NCBI RefSeq assembly: GCF_003925875.1
Contig: NZ_AP019309.1
Location: forward strand, 930,001 to 994,000
DNA: 64,000 bases
Reading direction: 5' to 3'
From: Intestinibaculum porci
GTDB taxonomy: Bacteria; Bacillota_I; Bacilli_A; Erysipelotrichales; Coprobacillaceae
Both the position numbers and the translations under genes were made by a program. Shown piece after piece: positions 43,504-51,606 of this stretch. Position 1 is the first letter of the stretch. Every line of letters begins with the position of its first letter. A model generated the notes under the pieces. It was not told where the DNA came from and did no database searches. It was given only the letters and a program-made list of their open reading frames with translations.

Positions 43504-43509
43504 TGATAA

Positions 43510-43531
43510 TGATCAGGCGTTAGCCTGATCA
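43510..43531. repeat. 22-bp target duplication, left copy (glucokinase terminator stem)
   Basis: Palindromic arms TGATCAGGC and GCCTGATCA. Identical copy at 49606-49627 is followed by the T-run of the original terminator. Confidence 0.85.
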
Positions 43532-43661
43532 ATGGCGTCAATTTAACAATCAGCTGTTATCTTGACGCTTTTATTTTCTCAATTTTATTCCAGCATGTGT
43601 TAAAATATGAATCAGGAATAATTTAGTCATGATGATTCAGAAAAAAAGGGCACAAAGCCCT

Positions 43662-43728
43662 AAAATGGTACCATAGAAAGGAACATTACATTGACAGTAA
43701 TGTCACCTAACCTATGGTGCCATTTTTT
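43662..43728 (+). terminator. Hairpin with T-run at the left end of the IS3-like element
   Basis: AAAATGGTACCATAG pairs with CTATGGTGCCATTTT (one wobble) across about 35 bases, followed by T6. Likely shields the transposase gene from outside transcription. Confidence 0.6.
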
Positions 43729-43749
43729 GTAATGAAGGTAATAATTGTT

Positions 43750-45633
43750 ATGTCTAAAGGAACTGTAATATCTGATGAAGCCATTAAAATACTTTCAGCC
43801 AATAAATTCGTCAAACTGGTGAGATCAAATCGTATTTCATTTACCTATGAATTCAGGATCATGATGTGGGAGAGATGGATTAAATATAAAAGCATTTCAT
43901 CAATTAGAGAGGTCATGAAGGAAAATGGCATTGACTACTCTCTCTTTAACGCACAAATTATTAGTCGTATTCAAAGAAATTTTAAACGCGATGGGAAACC
44001 TACTAACGGACGTATGGGTAACTCTGCCAAACGTAATAAAACAGATAAAAACTATGATCAGTTCCTCGTCTCGACCGGAAAATTCATTCGCGCACGTCGT
44101 GGCATTTCATTTTCAAAAGACTATACTGAAAAGCTCTATAGCTTATATCCTGATCAGGCAATCGAGGATGTCCTTAAATCAGATGGCTTTGATCCAGAAC
44201 GAATTGGCTATCAGCGTATTCATGCGCTAAAAAGAGTATTTGACGGGGATATTGAGCCGCATGAAAAGCAAACGTTTGATCAGAATATAATCGAAGAATA
44301 TACAGACCACCCAATGGTTGAAAGGATAACTGCACATAGAATCAAACTGACGGATGTATTCTACAGCGAGGCATCAATTTTCTCTGATATGCACATTAAT
44401 GATATTCTCAAAATCTTTGATATTGATTCTGCAATTCTTACTATCTCCACGAAACAGCGCATAAAAAAGCAAATTACTCAATCTGATCATACATGTTCCA
44501 TTCATTTAGAGGCAGGCTCATCTGATCGATTCAAAGCCATTGCCCTAAATCTTTATGAGGCACTATACAATAAAATGGCTTGTTTTCTGAAGTCTATATC
44601 CCAATGCATATGGGATCTTAGCGCCAGCCTAAGAAGAGAAGCCTTCATAATGCTTGACTCGTTAGCGGACAGTCACATTATGCCTTTAAGCCAAATCATT
44701 AGTGAAGCAGGCCTGTCAAGATCCACCTTCTACTCTATTTTAAGAAACGATGCCTACGGCAGATATGAAGAGCTAAGGAATCAGAATGAAGAAGAAGAGG
44801 TCAGGGCCATTATTGATACAATGAATTACAAAGGCTATCCCAAAGGCAAGAGAACTATCCACATGATGATGCCTGAGATTACAGGCAAAAGCTTTTCAAT
44901 TAAGAAAATAGCACGTCTGATGAGAAAGCATGGACTTAATTCAGGAGTTCGAGCTCCCCGTCAGTCCCTTAAGGCTGCTCGTGAGCATCTTGAAAAATAC
45001 AAGTGCCCTAATCTTCTTAAACGAAAATTCAGACTGGCCATGCCTTTTACGCACATTCTCACTGATGTTTCCTATCTGTTTTTTGGAGCAAATGGCAGAG
45101 GCTATCTTTCAGCAGTCAAAGATGCGGTAACAGGGCGCATATTAGCTGCCGTGGTGAGCGAAAACAATGATTCGGCAATGACTATGGAGACGCTGAAGCA
45201 GCTTGAACGCTACACCTTTCGCGATAATGCCATCTTCCATAGCGACCAGGGGGCACTGTATCTCAATGAAGCATTTCAGAAAAAGGTAAAGGAGCTGGGA
45301 TTCAGAGAATCAATGTCCAGAAGAGGCATCTGTGAAGACAACAGTTCACAGGAAAGCTTTTTTGGCCATTTCAAGGATGAATGTGACTATACCAGCTGCA
45401 GTTCCATTGAGGAGCTGAGGGAAATGGTGCTTTCCTATGTGGAATACTACAACAACGAGAGACCACAGTGGACAAGAAATAAAATGACACCCGTGAAATA
45501 CGAATCGTATCTTGAAGCCATGCCGCCTGAGCAGTTTGATTTATACATGTCCAAGGAAACTGATAAGTATGAAAAAACGAAGGCTCTTGCAACAAAAAGA
45601 GCTAAAGCGCGTGCCAACCTGATACTGTCATGA
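43750..45633 (+). CDS. IS3-type transposase, long single-frame form
   Basis: A 627-residue protein. The N-terminal 330 residues carry two or three helix-turn-helix-like modules (YEFRIMMWERWIKYKSISSI; YTEKLYSLYPDQAIEDVLK). The middle is an HTH_21-type IS3 segment (YKGYPKGKRTIHMMM). The C-terminal rve/DDE core shows TDVSYLFFG (first Asp), FHSDQGALY (second Asp) and RRGICEDNSSQESFFGHFK (Glu), then YNNERPQWT. Start at 43750 follows GAAGGTAA. A full OrfA/OrfB-type protein in one frame with such a long N-terminus is unusual for IS3. Confidence 0.85.
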   Translation: MSKGTVISDEAIKILSANKFVKLVRSNRISFTYEFRIMMWERWIKYKSISSIREVMKENGIDYSLFNAQIISRIQRNFKRDGKPTNGRMGNSAKRNKTDKNYDQFLVSTGKFIRARRGISFSKDYTEKLYSLYPDQAIEDVLKSDGFDPERIGYQRIHALKRVFDGDIEPHEKQTFDQNIIEEYTDHPMVERITAHRIKLTDVFYSEASIFSDMHINDILKIFDIDSAILTISTKQRIKKQITQSDHTCSIHLEAGSSDRFKAIALNLYEALYNKMACFLKSISQCIWDLSASLRREAFIMLDSLADSHIMPLSQIISEAGLSRSTFYSILRNDAYGRYEELRNQNEEEEVRAIIDTMNYKGYPKGKRTIHMMMPEITGKSFSIKKIARLMRKHGLNSGVRAPRQSLKAAREHLEKYKCPNLLKRKFRLAMPFTHILTDVSYLFFGANGRGYLSAVKDAVTGRILAAVVSENNDSAMTMETLKQLERYTFRDNAIFHSDQGALYLNEAFQKKVKELGFRESMSRRGICEDNSSQESFFGHFKDECDYTSCSSIEELREMVLSYVEYYNNERPQWTRNKMTPVKYESYLEAMPPEQFDLYMSKETDKYEKTKALATKRAKARANLILS

Positions 45634-45679
45634 TATACTACAGACACCAATAAATACATATCAGGCGGAGGAAAGCATT

Positions 45680-46105
45680 ATGGCAAAAAGAAATAAGCAG
45701 ATTAACCTGGAAAAAGCTTTAGAAGAGGCTTCTAAAAACCAATACACTGAGAAGGTAACAGATGGCAGAATCTATTACACAAGGGAATTCTATGCCCGCA
45801 TGAAACAGCTGATGGATGGCGGCATGTCACCAATTAAGGCATACAAGACACTCGGATACGATGTAAACACGTTAGGAGAAGATCGCGCCTACGCAGCTGC
45901 CGGTCGCGCTGCCAGCGGACAGGCACGCAAGCCCAAGAAGGTCAGCGGCATGGTTCCGCGTGATCAGGTTGGCAATCTTTCCGATCAGGAAATGGTTGAC
46001 TATCTTAATTCACGCATTGACTATCTGGAAACAGTTGTTGGAGTCGTAAAAAAAAAGGGCTCAAAACTGCTGGTGAAGGTATCATCATCGAAGAACGAGA
46101 AATAG
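45680..46105 (+). CDS. OrfA of the second IS3-type transposase
   Basis: A 141-residue basic DNA-binding protein: TREFYARMKQLMDGGMSPIK resembles a module in the N-terminal half of the neighbouring 627-residue transposase, and the C-terminal part (MVDYLNSRIDYLETVVGVVK) looks like a short coiled coil, as in IS3 OrfA proteins. GGCGGAGG precedes the ATG. A run of nine A at 46048-46056 near its end allows -1 slippage into OrfB. Confidence 0.82.
   Translation: MAKRNKQINLEKALEEASKNQYTEKVTDGRIYYTREFYARMKQLMDGGMSPIKAYKTLGYDVNTLGEDRAYAAAGRAASGQARKPKKVSGMVPRDQVGNLSDQEMVDYLNSRIDYLETVVGVVKKKGSKLLVKVSSSKNEK
46048..46057 (+). other. Programmed -1 frameshift site (A9G)
   Basis: Codons AAA AAA AAG GGC include the heptamer A-AAA-AAG. 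After slipping back one base the frame is open without stop from 46049 to 47469. Confidence 0.75.
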
Positions 46106-46272
46106 CGGTAGATAAATGTCTTCTCGCAGATACGTATATAAGAGATCATCCTGATGTCAAAATCAGTGAGGCCTGCAAGATATTTGAAATCACTTCAAGA
46201 AAATACAGGTGCTGGAAGAAAAAACGTGAAAATCCATCTGCCAGCCAGATTCAAAAGGCTACCGAAGATGAG

Positions 46273-47469
46273 ATGATAAAGGATAAGATGATTGATATCG
46301 TCAAAACCTTTGGCTTCGTGCCTGGGCGAAGAACATTCTGTGCTCTTTTTACTCGCATGCATTTTAATATCAATGGTCAGCCGGTTGGTGAAAAAAAAGT
46401 AACGCGTCTGATGCAGGAATTGAATTTGTTCCCCAACCTACGCCATAAGGATGCCTACAAGGGACAGGCAACATACAACCATCCTTATTATAACGTTAAC
46501 GATTACGTAAAAAGATACTTCAGACAAGACCCGCGCAAGGTTATTCTCACTGATATCACTTATATTTCCTATAACGGCAATAAAAACATCTCTTATCTAT
46601 GCGTATTTAAGGACGCATTTACCAATGAAATTCTTGGATGGCATATTTCTAAAAGAATGGACGTTACCCTCGTTGAAAGAGCTTATTGCATGATGATGGA
46701 TCTTCATGAAAAGGAAATTGAGAAGGCATGCAAATACATGAAGGAAAATGGAAAAAAGCCTTATGTCTATATTCATTCAGACAACGGCTCTCAATACCTT
46801 TCCACCGAATTCAGAGAAATTCTAGAAGATGACGGCTTCATTCAGTCAGTATCCAGACGCGGAAACAGCCTCGATAATGCGCCAATGGAAAGCTTTTTTG
46901 GAAGAATGAAATCTATTCTAAATGAATTAGTTGAAAAATGTCCTAACTTTGATACGGTTGAAACCATGATCAAAAACTTTATGGAACAGTATAATACAGT
47001 AATACCTCAGTATGATCTGGCAGGACAGACTCCTGAAGAATACTATCGCTATATTACTGAAGGCATTTATCAGACTGATGTTTATTTCGGCGTCTCAGCC
47101 AAAGAACTCATCACCCAGGAAGAACTGGAATCCAGACGCGAACAAGCGCGTGCTGAAAGAGCTCGACGCAGAAGCAAGCAAAACGAGTCTGGTGAATCAT
47201 CTTATGAGTATAAGAGCGAACAGCATCCTTTCAAAGTGGTACAGAAGGATCAGAAGGTTATTCTAGCTCGAATCAATAAGCTACAGAGACTGATTGACGA
47301 AAATACGAAAGAAGTAGAAAAACTGGATACGCTATTGGCTGATACGAATACAGCACTCAAGTTCCTAACCAAGGCATCCGATTCAGTGATCAAGTCACTG
47401 TACTATCCTAGAAACTGGCAGAATTATCCAGAGCTATCGTATGTGAACAGAACAGGAGCAATCTATTAA
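46273..47469 (+). CDS. OrfB of the second IS3-type transposase
   Basis: 398 residues from the first ATG, but the frame is open back to the A9 slippery site at 46048, giving a fused OrfAB of about 596 residues, the usual active form in IS3. The extra segment (EACKIFEITSRKYRCWKKKR) is a helix-turn-helix that would be lost with the internal ATG. DDE core: LTDITYISYNG (Asp), IHSDNGSQYLS (Asp), SRRGNSLDNAPMESFFGRMK (Glu). The C-terminus has a coiled coil (about 330-365). Confidence 0.87.
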   Translation: MIKDKMIDIVKTFGFVPGRRTFCALFTRMHFNINGQPVGEKKVTRLMQELNLFPNLRHKDAYKGQATYNHPYYNVNDYVKRYFRQDPRKVILTDITYISYNGNKNISYLCVFKDAFTNEILGWHISKRMDVTLVERAYCMMMDLHEKEIEKACKYMKENGKKPYVYIHSDNGSQYLSTEFREILEDDGFIQSVSRRGNSLDNAPMESFFGRMKSILNELVEKCPNFDTVETMIKNFMEQYNTVIPQYDLAGQTPEEYYRYITEGIYQTDVYFGVSAKELITQEELESRREQARAERARRRSKQNESGESSYEYKSEQHPFKVVQKDQKVILARINKLQRLIDENTKEVEKLDTLLADTNTALKFLTKASDSVIKSLYYPRNWQNYPELSYVNRTGAIY

Positions 47470-47571
47470 TAATACATCAAGTCATCCACTTCTTGTTTAA
47501 AAAATCACGTAAAGTGGTTCTTTTTGTCGTACAATAAAACTCCTGATATGGATGAATAGAAGCGAAAAAAT

Positions 47572-47604
47572 GAGGGCAAGATTCAATTGAATCTTGCCCT
47601 CATC
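47572..47604. terminator. Hairpin after OrfB
   Basis: GAGGGCAAGATTC/GAATCTTGCCCTC palindrome; possible terminator with weak T content. Confidence 0.5.
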
Positions 47605-47724
47605 CTTTGTGAGCTGAAAACAAGTCGTCACTGTCAATAAATAGTCCTTGACAATGGTACCAGTTTACCCCTATCGTAAAATAGCCATTTTTTTAAAATT
47701 GCTTATTTTACCGGCATTTCTTAA

Positions 47725-49227
47725 CTACTTTCTTACGGTTCTATAAATGCCTTTGAATCTTTTGACTTTAGCGTGTTCCCTGCCGTCAATTCTATACCTG
47801 TTTTTCGGTGGCGATACAACGTATTTATTCCATCTTGGGTAGTGCCTATCTGGTCGGATAGGCACTTTTATTTTATTAAGCAGTTCTATGACAGTTGTTA
47901 TTGCATTCCTTATCTTTCGCTTCCTGCCATTCAGGATTCCATCCAAAATTCCCTGTTTTCTGAGAACGTCGATCATCTGCTGCGTATTAACCTCATATTG
48001 ATACTTGTCAGCATTGCCTTCAGCCTTACTGATCATATAGACGTTTCTAAGTATATCATCAATCTCCTTGCCGATGATGCCGAAAATGCTCATCATGAAT
48101 ATCTTTCCCAGTATGCAACATTCCGCAATATTAAGATTGGTAGAGATGTGCCTTTCTATTTCGAGTATGCTTTTCAAATTTTTATAGTCGGTTTCGATGC
48201 CCCACCTGCGAGAGTAGAGATCAATTATGTCTTCCGCAGAGAACTCGTCCTTCGAAAGATTAGTGAAGTATAAAAGCTCTGTAGCTGCTTCTTTTCCATC
48301 CTTGTCAGTATATTTATATCTGTGACGCACCACTCGGATCTTGATTGATTCATTCTCCTTGAAGTATGCCTCGCATTCAGGATACTTCGAGAGCTCCTTG
48401 AATGCCAGTTTATAAGGAGTAACCTCAATCACTTCATCATCCGACTTCATTTCCTTTACCAGATCCTTGTAGAAGTTCTTCTTGCCTCGGATGCAGTACT
48501 TCATGCCCATATACTCGACAAAGCTGAAGATCTTTAGCGATGGATAATATCTGTCTGCAAGCAGAAGATACTTGCCCGGATCGTCAGTCACGTGGTTCTT
48601 CAGCGTATAAAGATGGTTCATGCACATTGGTATCTCCGAATAGTTGAAGTTATTATATGTGAAGTCAATAATATTGCCGTTGAGCACATCGTAAAGCATG
48701 GCCAGCTTAATTTTTCTTTTGGCATCCTCAATCTGATCGGCGATTGAGAGCTTGCCGTTTCCTCTTAGCGTATAGTAACGGATGGCATCAGGCGTGTCAG
48801 GCGCCTCGATGGTTGTTCCGTCCTCAGCCAATACGATGTAGCCGTTCAGCTTCTTTACAAGTTCGGACTTATAGAATTCCTTTGAGGTCTCCTGCGTAAG
48901 ATATCTGAAGACATACGGGTTAAGCTTCTTGCCGTTTGCAAAAAGCGCCTGTCTTGATATCCTGTTCTTCAGTTTGCCGACATCGCTGAAAAATGAGTTG
49001 AGCTCAAAGCCGGTATTGGTTCGGTGACGGAACGCAAAGTACATAATAGCGCTTGAACTGCTGAAGCATCTATGCCTTGTAAAGTCGACAGGCTTGTTTC
49101 TGGCCATTACTGTGGTATCATCGGAATTTATTATAGCGGATACCCTATTGACAAAGCTCACGAGAGGGCTGCACTTGTATTCAATAACTGTCTTAACTAC
49201 TTTCTTCTTAGGAGTCTTCGTCGTCAT
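47725..49227 (-). CDS. IS1634-type transposase of copy f, catalytic part
   Basis: About 500 residues from the ATG at 49227. First Asp in VLAEDGTTIE, second in LLADRYYPS, and the YREK-type block YSRRWGIETDYKNLK with the Glu. The N-terminal domain common to the family is in a separate, overlapping frame (49208-49411), so the protein is made by coupling, +1 shift, or has been broken by a one-base change. Reading from 49332 would add residues in the wrong frame of the N-terminal domain. Confidence 0.82.
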   Translation of the reverse strand: MTTKTPKKKVVKTVIEYKCSPLVSFVNRVSAIINSDDTTVMARNKPVDFTRHRCFSSSSAIMYFAFRHRTNTGFELNSFFSDVGKLKNRISRQALFANGKKLNPYVFRYLTQETSKEFYKSELVKKLNGYIVLAEDGTTIEAPDTPDAIRYYTLRGNGKLSIADQIEDAKRKIKLAMLYDVLNGNIIDFTYNNFNYSEIPMCMNHLYTLKNHVTDDPGKYLLLADRYYPSLKIFSFVEYMGMKYCIRGKKNFYKDLVKEMKSDDEVIEVTPYKLAFKELSKYPECEAYFKENESIKIRVVRHRYKYTDKDGKEAATELLYFTNLSKDEFSAEDIIDLYSRRWGIETDYKNLKSILEIERHISTNLNIAECCILGKIFMMSIFGIIGKEIDDILRNVYMISKAEGNADKYQYEVNTQQMIDVLRKQGILDGILNGRKRKIRNAITTVIELLNKIKVPIRPDRHYPRWNKYVVSPPKNRYRIDGREHAKVKRFKGIYRTVRK

Positions 49228-49411
49228 AGACAAGTCTAGGCTTCTTCTTGGCGAAGGCCGCCTTAAGATATGGAACGGATTCGTTGTCAACCAGGCCGAA
49301 ATTGATAAGAACGACATGTTTAGGAACACCATTTACACGCTTGGACTCAACCAGAGCGCAGAAGCTCTTGGTCTTGTCTCCCTTATTATTTGGAATTACT
49401 CTAACAAACAT
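49208..49411 (-). CDS. IS1634-type transposase of copy f, N-terminal part
   Basis: 67 residues (FVRVIPNNKGDKTKSFCALV, then KRVNGVPKHVVLINFG), the usual start of IS1634 transposases. AGGAGGCATGATAT precedes the ATG. It ends in TAA 20 bases after the ATG of the catalytic frame, one base out of phase. Confidence 0.75.
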   Translation of the reverse strand: MFVRVIPNNKGDKTKSFCALVESKRVNGVPKHVVLINFGLVDNESVPYLKAAFAKKKPRLVYDDEDS

Positions 49412-49605
49412 ATATCATGCCTCCTTTTCTCAACTACATTATATCATATATAATAGCTAACATTAAATAATATAGCAGTATTTGCCTTAACTACTTTTTG
49501 CTTGGAACCAGATAGCAGGAGACTACTATATATATTTTTTTAAATGATATTTGTATTTATAACACAAAAGGACGCAAAAAAGCGCCAACCTTAAGTTGAC
49601 GCCAT
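49412..49605. other. Right end of IS copy f, non-coding
   Basis: Holds the transposase promoter region (TATAAT box near 49440 on the minus strand) and, at 49570-49604, a GGCGTCAACTTAAGGTTGGCGC-like hairpin forming the terminal repeat. No gene. Confidence 0.5.
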
Positions 49606-49635
49606 TGATCAGGCGTTAGCCTGATCATTTTTTTG
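49606..49635 (+). terminator. Original glucokinase terminator, right copy of the 22-bp repeat
   Basis: TGATCAGGC/GCCTGATCA stem followed by eight T, now separated from the glucokinase gene by 6 kb. Confidence 0.8.
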
Positions 49636-49769
49636 TTAAGAGAAAAAGTGCGATTAATAGGGATAAAAGAGAAAATATCATCCATTTCCTTACAATCATT
49701 CACATTCTTGTAAAGAATAGGCCAAAGGAATGTAAAGAACATGTTAAGAATAGGTTTAGAGTATATAAA

Positions 49770-49797
49770 TTAACATATTCTTAACAAACACTTAACG
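49770..49797 (+). promoter_or_regulatory. Pho box (three 11-bp-spaced repeats)
   Basis: TTAACA-5-TTAACA-5-TTAACG. PhoP of Bacillota binds TTAACA-like hexamers spaced by about five bases. Position upstream of a phosphate transporter gene fits. The region 49636-49769 otherwise shows no gene. Confidence 0.7.
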
Positions 49798-49881
49798 ACG
49801 CCATGATGTTTCTTACTTAAATTTTGCTTATTATTTAATTGAAATTTAAGATTCATAAGGACAAGTTTGGAGGGCCTATAT

Positions 49882-51606
49882 ATGAATGAAACTATGAAAA
49901 CACTATTCGGTCTCTTTGGCGGTTTAGCGATCTTCCTCTTTGGCATGAACCAGATGAGTGACGCACTGCAGAAAGCTGCCGGGGAACGAATGAAAAAGAT
50001 ACTCGCGATGTTTACATCGAATCCTGTCAGAGGCGTTTTAGCTGGTGCTTTAGTCACGGCGGTATTACAAAGCTCTAGTGCGACCACCGTTATGGCGATC
50101 GGCTTTGTATCCGCTGGCTTAATGACCCTGCCGCAGGCGATCTCTGTCATCTTCGGGGCCAATATCGGGACCACGATGACGGCGCAGTTAATTGCTTTTG
50201 ATATCAATGATTATATTTATCCGATTATTTTTGTCGGCTTCTTGACCAACTTTATTGGTAAGAAAGAAAAGACGAAAAGTATCGGAACCGTTATTTTATC
50301 CTTTGGTTTATTATTCTTAGGAATTTCGACAATGAGTTCAGTGATGAAACCATTAGCGAATTCGCCAGTTTTCATCCATATGCTTGAAAAAGTTGCGGAT
50401 ATTCCAGTCTTAGGCGTTTTAGTTGGTTTATGTATGACCCTAGTTGTGCAGAGTTCCAGTGCGACGATTGCCGTACTTCAGAACTTTGCGGCCCAGGCTG
50501 GACCAAATGGGCATTCCTTACTTGGTTTAGCGGGCGCCATTCCGGTTTTATTAGGCGATAATATCGGGACCACCATTACGGCTTTATTAGCCTCTTTAGG
50601 CGGCAGCCGTAATGCGAAAAGAACGGCGATTGCCCATTCGATCTTCAATATTTCCGGAACCTTATTATTTATCTGGTTCGTCAAACCTTATGCCCATCTG
50701 ATTACAATGATTTCTCCCCATGGGGCGGAAACCGCAGTCATCTCTCGTCAGATTGCCAATGCCCATACAGGCTTCAACTTAACAATGACAATTTTATGGA
50801 CGCCATTATTATGGTTAATGGTCAAGATCGTGATGCGTATCTTACCAGAAACAGAAGCGGAAAAGAAAGCGCGTTTAGGAACGAGTCGTGTCATTATGTA
50901 CTTAGATGATTCGGTCATCAATCAGCCTGCGGCCGCTTTACAGTTAGTCGTTGAAGAAGCAATGAACTTAGGTAACCGCATTGGGGAAGTGTTACGAGAA
51001 TTGCCAGCTGTTGTCCGCGGTGATCAAAAGAGCGAAAAAGTTATGGCATCGATTGAAGAAAGCAAAGAGCTTCATAAAGCCATTCTTGATTATATGACCA
51101 AGCTTTATGCCAATGGTGTCTTAAATGAAGATCAGGCCCATAAAGCCAATGGTATTATGTATATCGTTGATGAAATTGATCGTATCCGTCATGTCTGTCA
51201 CAATGTTATTGATATTTCAACGCAGGATCAGACCGGTGGCTTCAGTTACAGCGCTAAAGCCATTTCGGATGTCAATAAATCCTTAATGTCGACTTTAAAT
51301 ATGTACTTTGCGACGTTAGAAGTCATTGCGACAGGCGATGTCAGTCGGATTCATGAGATTAAGAATATTAAAAACACCTTGGTGCAGTTTAATGTCAATA
51401 TTCAGAATCGCCACTTAAAACGTGTCGCTAAAGGAGAATGCGCAAAAGAATTAACAGCTTCCTTTGCTGAGCTGATTTCGAATATCGATCGTATTACCAG
51501 TAACTGTGATAACATCTTAGAGGCGGTTAACGGTCATCTCAATCTCAATGAGTTAAGAGCGATTGAAGACCACGTGATGCCTTCTGAATTATCCTTGAAT
51601 ATGTAA
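49882..51606 (+). CDS. Na+/phosphate cotransporter with PhoU-like tail
   Basis: A 574-residue NptA/PNaS-type transporter. Two inverted membrane repeats each have the QSSSA motif ([11 protein letters not shown] near residue 60; [11 protein letters not shown] near 190) and a GANIGTT or GDNIGTT element. The C-terminal 200 residues are soluble, helical and PhoU-like. GGAGGG precedes the ATG at 49882. The Pho box upstream suggests induction by phosphate starvation. Terminated at 51609-51635. Confidence 0.93.

Follow-up and report, generated by a model that had tools for sequence, protein, structure and literature searches.

Pho boxes are built from direct repeats. The part of PMC4415409 on which we draw describes those of E. 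coli as two direct repeat units of 11 nt and those of B. subtilis and others as similar, and 11-nt direct repeats are likewise described for Streptomyces in the part used of PMC7866108. The locus analyzed here shares with the boxes of B. subtilis PhoP, E. coli PhoB and Streptomyces PhoP the presence of at least two direct units at an 11-nt period before phosphate genes. It differs from them in the unit itself, which is TTWACA here versus CTGTCAT in E. coli and GTTCACC in S. coelicolor (PMC4415409, same part), and in an additional reverse-oriented pair upstream in the promoter of NaPi1, the gene behind the box. As for the transporter, nptA of S. aureus is PhoPR-dependent, and PhoPR is in turn modulated by the PhoU domain of NptA (PMC13170248, in the portion consulted). 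NaPi1 resembles it as an NptA-type symporter with a C-terminal PhoU domain; control by PhoPR, shown in S. aureus, is predicted here. Unlike the S. aureus case, the lineage is a different one and the genome carries another Na/Pi-PhoU gene, which is preceded by a box as well. The phosphate transporters of S. aureus also show a response to glucose that is independent of PhoPR, according to an excerpt of PMC10746193.

Two described cases of negative control provide a comparison for the reverse-oriented boxes that we report below at sister Na/Pi genes. In B. subtilis, phosphorylated PhoP represses tagAB, the targets there being teichoic acid genes (PMC6232261, in part). In S. meliloti, pit1 falls under phosphate stress, so that a low-affinity, secondary importer goes down during the starvation response, as we propose for the reverse-box Na/Pi genes. 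However, this importer belongs to the Pit family and to an alphaproteobacterium, and the part of PMC8829014 on which we rely gives expression, not box orientation.

In this study, we analyzed a stretch of 64,000 nucleotides of the genome of Intestinibaculum porci, positions 930001-994000, hereafter the window. Our results indicate that positions 49770-49797 are a real Pho box before the phosphate transporter gene NaPi1, which would belong to the phosphate-starvation regulon, and most likely an activator site; we assign this reading, in which binding and activation are predicted from sequence, a probability of about 0.86. The features of the locus are as follows:

49606..49627, plus strand: intrinsic terminator hairpin followed by T7, just upstream of the NaPi1 promoter (from sequence and congener comparison)
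49731..49747, minus strand: reverse-oriented Pho-box pair, TTAACATGTTCTTTACA (exact TTWACA-N5-TTWACA match; congener alignment)
49770..49797, plus strand: forward Pho-box array TTAACA-N5-TTAACA-N5-TTAACG with an 11-base period (sequence, shuffles, congener alignment)
49804..49812, plus strand: candidate extended -10, TG-A-TGTTTC, 6 nt past the last Pho unit (GATA register in forward-array promoters)
49869..49874, plus strand: ribosome-binding site GGAGGG (from sequence)
49882..51606, plus strand: NaPi1, NptA-type Na+/phosphate symporter with a C-terminal PhoU domain, 574 aa (profile matches)

The original prediction, made from the sequence alone, was that TTAACA, TTAACA and TTAACG follow each other at an exact 11-base period in a PhoP binding pattern. 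The repeats are as it described them: the three direct units occupy 49770-49775, 49781-49786 and 49792-49797, and the period is exactly 11 bases. The same prediction attributed QSSS phosphate-transporter motifs and a PhoU-like tail to the downstream gene, and both attributions were confirmed. NaPi1, which runs from the ATG at 49882 to a stop codon ending at 51606, contains QSSS twice in its translation, has tandem Na_Pi_cotrans domains (PF02690 in two stretches, E 2.3e-66), and matches TIGR00704 above its cut-off (235 bits, cut-off 210) as well as NF037997. Moreover, residues 471-549 form a PhoU domain at the C-terminal end (PF01895, 30.4 bits versus a cut-off of 23.5). These matches identify the product as a PhoU-tailed Na+/phosphate symporter of the NptA type, whose transport function is predicted. 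Its closest relatives share 75 percent identity, in an uncultured Erysipelotrichaceae bacterium, and 70 percent, in Sharpea, which places the genome close to Sharpea within Erysipelotrichales. On the reading proposed here, the phosphate regulon of a gut lineage that has been little studied would include an NptA-type transporter.

With up to two mismatches allowed, TTAAC-N6-TTAAC-N6-TTAAC is found twice in the window, both times in the NaPi1 promoter, versus 0.19 matches expected; two or more matches were obtained in 3 of 100 shuffles. Across the whole genome (3,212,924 bases in a single contig), the NaPi1 array is the sole match without mismatches, and one further match has a single mismatch. 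At up to two mismatches there are 22 matches versus 13 for a reversed-pattern control, and at this tolerance the pattern alone is non-specific. Another loose pattern gave 31 genome-wide matches versus 28 in the control, a signal not separable from background. Similarly, the pair TTWACA-N5-TTWACA is not over-represented in the genome, with 11 exact matches versus 9 in the control; two of the 11 lie in the NaPi1 promoter, one at the second Na/Pi-PhoU gene (NaPi2) and one before a polysaccharide deacetylase gene, and at least three fall within ORFs. Because these loose-pattern counts fail to separate signal from background, conservation was used as the test instead. Boxes were scored as TTWAC plus half a point for a following A or G, a scheme chosen from the window's own repeats, by which not one of 2000 dinucleotide shuffles attained the three-unit score of 49631-49881, the 251 bases preceding NaPi1.

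We scored up to 250 bases upstream of 80 related Na/Pi genes, loci with another gene directly upstream included. The three-unit threshold was reached at spacing 11 in 29 of the 80, at spacings 7-10 and 12-16 in only 0-4, and in none of the 80 when two control stretches within the gene bodies were scored. The 11-base spacing is, in other words, conserved before related genes. When each upstream region was compared with its own shuffles, 35 of 81 (the window included) fell at or below 0.05, and 46 of 81 failed at this level. The other Na/Pi genes of the order behave alike: a box at spacing 11 precedes 20 of 29 (30 less the window itself, L169), and other spacings give 0-2. The same holds for pst in the relatives, where a two-unit box at spacing 11 occurs in 20 of 29 loci, against 0-3 at the other spacings from 8 to 15. 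This set derives from PstS matches in 31 related genomes, of whose 30 loci one (L140) was dropped with only 21 nt upstream; it includes the window's own genome, one gene twice (L158, L168), one genome twice (L149, L165) and several weak PstS matches, of less than about 35 percent identity, whose orthology is uncertain. Together with the regulator genes and the NaPi2 array described below, the conserved spacing at Na/Pi genes and at pst of relatives supports the predicted PhoP binding pattern. The consensus TTWACA at an 11-nt period, tested by conservation, is usable to annotate the regulon in Erysipelotrichales and Lachnospiraceae.

The conserved arrays also share a fixed distance to the core promoter. 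From the 81 Na/Pi loci, 31 rows with forward arrays were picked, near-identical pairs such as L096 and L117 among them. GATA starts 7 bases past the last unit in 16 of these 31, and at any other offset in 0-3; this count was made after inspecting the offset rows of a search for TATAAT past the forward arrays, which itself showed nothing clear. The window and its congener carry GATG at this register. The GATA register can be read as a -10 held at a constant distance from the array, which takes the place of the -35, an arrangement that activation would predict. The candidate extended -10 of NaPi1 at 49804-49812, with the -10 itself at 49807-49812, is weak, since its key A is replaced by G. An alternative -10, TATTAT, can be seen by eye at 49829-49834, and scanning the promoter region for plain sigma-70 promoters gave no information, with 3 matches versus 3.3 expected.

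As the repeats match the known site of the regulator of phosphate shortage, NaPi1 is very probably switched on at low phosphate. Under phosphate scarcity, the sensor kinase would phosphorylate PhoP, which would then bind the 11-base direct repeats head to tail at the usual place of the -35 and recruit RNA polymerase to the poor extended -10 six bases further on. The NaPi1 importer would thereby be induced together with Pst, and the PhoU domain at its C-terminus may exert feedback on the kinase in the manner described for S. aureus NptA. A Pho box at NaPi1 is, in itself, expected biology.

The promoter contains a second element that the original prediction overlooked. The minus-strand pair at 49731-49747 is one of the 11 exact TTWACA-N5-TTWACA matches of the genome, and weaker units flank it on both sides, extending from about 49709 to 49758. 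The promoter of the congener (L038, identical in this region to L170) aligns here without gaps, with the reverse pair and the forward array in matching places and the forward array at the same phase. We also considered whether the reverse pair could serve a divergent gene. In the congener this was ruled out, because the upstream neighbor there is a co-directional glucokinase gene.

Reversed boxes, also overlooked at first, are widespread at the sister Na/Pi genes of the order. Among the 29 loci of that set, 14 have boxes on the minus strand only, 3 on the plus strand only, 3 on both and 9 on neither. In a second set, made of the 30 best matches to one such Na/Pi protein (L175, itself included as L199), 29 have boxes on the minus strand only and one on both. 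The two sets are not independent, as the second holds several species per genus and 9 of its 30 genomes are already in the first. At pst promoters the boxes of the 29 loci lie on the plus strand only in 19, on both strands in one and on neither in 9. In 6 of the 8 genomes with both genes in the sets, pst has plus-only and Na/Pi minus-only boxes; in the remaining two, one of the genes carries both orientations. The nearest upstream ORF of the sister Na/Pi genes is mostly co-directional. In PhoP-repressed promoters of B. subtilis, the repeats lie on the opposite strand.

The reverse-box promoters of the second set are well organized. A -35-like hexamer lies 17 bases before an extended -10 (TGT-TAA) in 25 of 30, other spacings accounting for at most one of 30, and in all 25 of these core promoters a reverse pair lies entirely upstream of the -35. 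In 17 of the 25, a further unit precedes the TGTTAA of the -10 by exactly 11 bases, with none at distances of 6-10 and 12-15 and three at 16. Operator units here flank and overlap a good core promoter, which suggests repression; PhoP may repress the reverse-box sister transporters and activate NaPi1. Among open-licence papers, a literature search found none on Pho boxes at Na/Pi genes in Clostridium or Erysipelotrichaceae lineages.

These observations bear on an alternative in which the site is bound by PhoP and the effect on NaPi1 is not simple activation: the reverse pair and the forward triple would act jointly, and the gene would be repressed or fine-tuned. The perfect match of the reverse pair and its gap-free alignment in the congener speak in favor of such joint action, as do the reverse boxes around a good core promoter at the sister genes, which resemble a repression operator, and the repression of tagAB by PhoP~P in B. 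subtilis mentioned above. However, the reverse pair of NaPi1 lies upstream of the forward triple and not over the core promoter, it is common to the genus only, as far as seen, and the forward triple, followed by a -10-like element at the forward-array register, resembles an activator site. We consider joint action unlikely, and keep activation from the forward array as the preferred reading for NaPi1.

A broader scheme for Erysipelotrichales would extend this reading. Forward boxes, at pst and NaPi1, would replace the -35 and activate, and at the Na/Pi-PhoU genes that belong to the order itself, reverse boxes flanking an intact -35 plus extended -10 would repress; NaPi1 would then be a later-acquired, starvation-induced importer versus a resident importer repressed by starvation. 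This scheme is possible but, on balance, somewhat doubtful as a whole. The reversed boxes of the sister transporters bear on whether operator orientation sets activation versus repression by an OmpR-family regulator, a question that can be addressed by comparing two promoters within single genomes carrying both kinds of box. The orientation pattern among the relatives is the part worth a bench test.

The original prediction depended on PhoP/PhoR and other such boxes being present in the same genome, and both were found. At about C1:312968-319518, a row of genes begins with pstS and continues with two genes that look permease-like by eye, pstB, phoU, the gene of an OmpR-type regulator at C1:317137-317814 and that of a sensor kinase, so that phoP and phoR directly follow pstSCAB-phoU as a cognate phosphate two-component system. 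PstS (TIGR02136), PstB (TIGR00972) and PhoU (TIGR02135) each exceed their curated cut-offs. The regulator has PhoB (TIGR02154) as its best match at 209 bits, below the cut-off of 296 for membership of that equivalog, and the kinase is likewise below the cut-offs for PhoR (265 versus 334 bits) and for PnpS, its best match (316 versus 400); the names PhoP-type and PhoR/PnpS-type rest for this reason on best match and synteny. The similar array is that of NaPi2, where TTTACATAAAATTAACATAAACCTTACA lies about 60 bases before the likely start codon (L123:2682), TATAAT follows 9 bases past the last unit, and the three-unit score was reached by none of 2000 shuffles. As for the same pattern before the genome's own pst, its promoter has a two-unit box, TTTACCTTATCTTTACA, with a score reached by 20 of 2000 shuffles, and the three-unit array is insignificant there (736 of 2000). 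A pst promoter with a two-unit box only is the weakest point of the Pho-box case.

Further boxes occur elsewhere in the genome. In front of the polysaccharide deacetylase gene, TTAAC units form an array of up to four in phase (L118:5571-5608, C1:324570), its three-unit and four-unit scores each being reached by none of 2000 shuffles. Because this gene, a few kb from phoPR, has such an array, cell-wall modification may be part of the phosphate regulon. Four TTWAC-like units in phase, one of them a weaker CTTAC, are found on the minus strand at C1:1340137-1340174 (L119:5138-5175), with no ORF of at least 70 aa on that strand within 1 kb downstream. Two exact two-unit boxes (L127:2594-2610 and L130:2239-2255) lie about 40-60 bases before small ORFs, of 88 aa, membrane-like and without a Pfam match, and of 76 aa, respectively. 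In three relatives (G002:C3, G003:C6 and G023:C4), a Na/Pi gene has a PhoP-like regulator gene no more than about 4 kb away.

OmpR-family regulators as a whole can bind direct repeats, and a member other than PhoP with a similar preference could occupy these sites. The genome has 10 Trans_reg_C matches, and the assignment to PhoP rests on synteny and motif. However, the motif also precedes pst, a classical PhoP target, in 20 of 29 relatives' loci, the PhoP gene sits within the pst-phoU cluster, and all 31 genomes searched have a PhoP match, although in many this is possibly another OmpR-family regulator. Binding by such a regulator is therefore distinctly improbable. Least probable of all is a chance origin of the repeats in AT-rich intergenic DNA, which would fit the lack of a genome-wide excess of two-unit boxes and is made very unlikely by the conservation tests, with the shuffles at 0/2000 and spacing 11 kept in relatives.

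The predicted PhoP site before NaPi1 accompanies a gene of restricted distribution. Matches of at least 70 percent are present in only 3 of 31 genomes, its own included, and the next are at about 42 percent. In a FastTree tree of 109 proteins, NaPi1 groups with support 1.0 with its five nearest relatives, of which two records are from the congener and three from Sharpea. The group sits inside mostly Lachnospiraceae/Clostridia proteins and includes none of the order's sister Na/Pi proteins. Either acquisition from Clostridia or an old paralogy followed by loss would fit these results; the test is a weak one, given that the clostridial set was selected by similarity to the query.

In the window, a 6-kb mobile-element block (43504-49627) lies between the glucokinase gene and NaPi1, with rve-type transposases at 43714-45633 and 46273-47469 and an IS4 transposase on the minus strand at 47725-49332. 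In the congener, glucokinase and the NaPi1 equivalent are 0.29 kb apart, and a terminator-like hairpin is seen by eye at the position equivalent to 49606-49627. The hairpin of the window probably belonged originally to the glucokinase gene. The 22-base terminator palindrome TGATCAGGCGTTAGCCTGATCA is present on both sides of the block (43510 and 49606), and the ends of the block, ATGGCGTCAA / TTGACGCCAT, lie inside the flanking palindromes, as if the element had landed in the terminator and duplicated its palindrome. The 166 bases at the right end of the block occur once in the genome.
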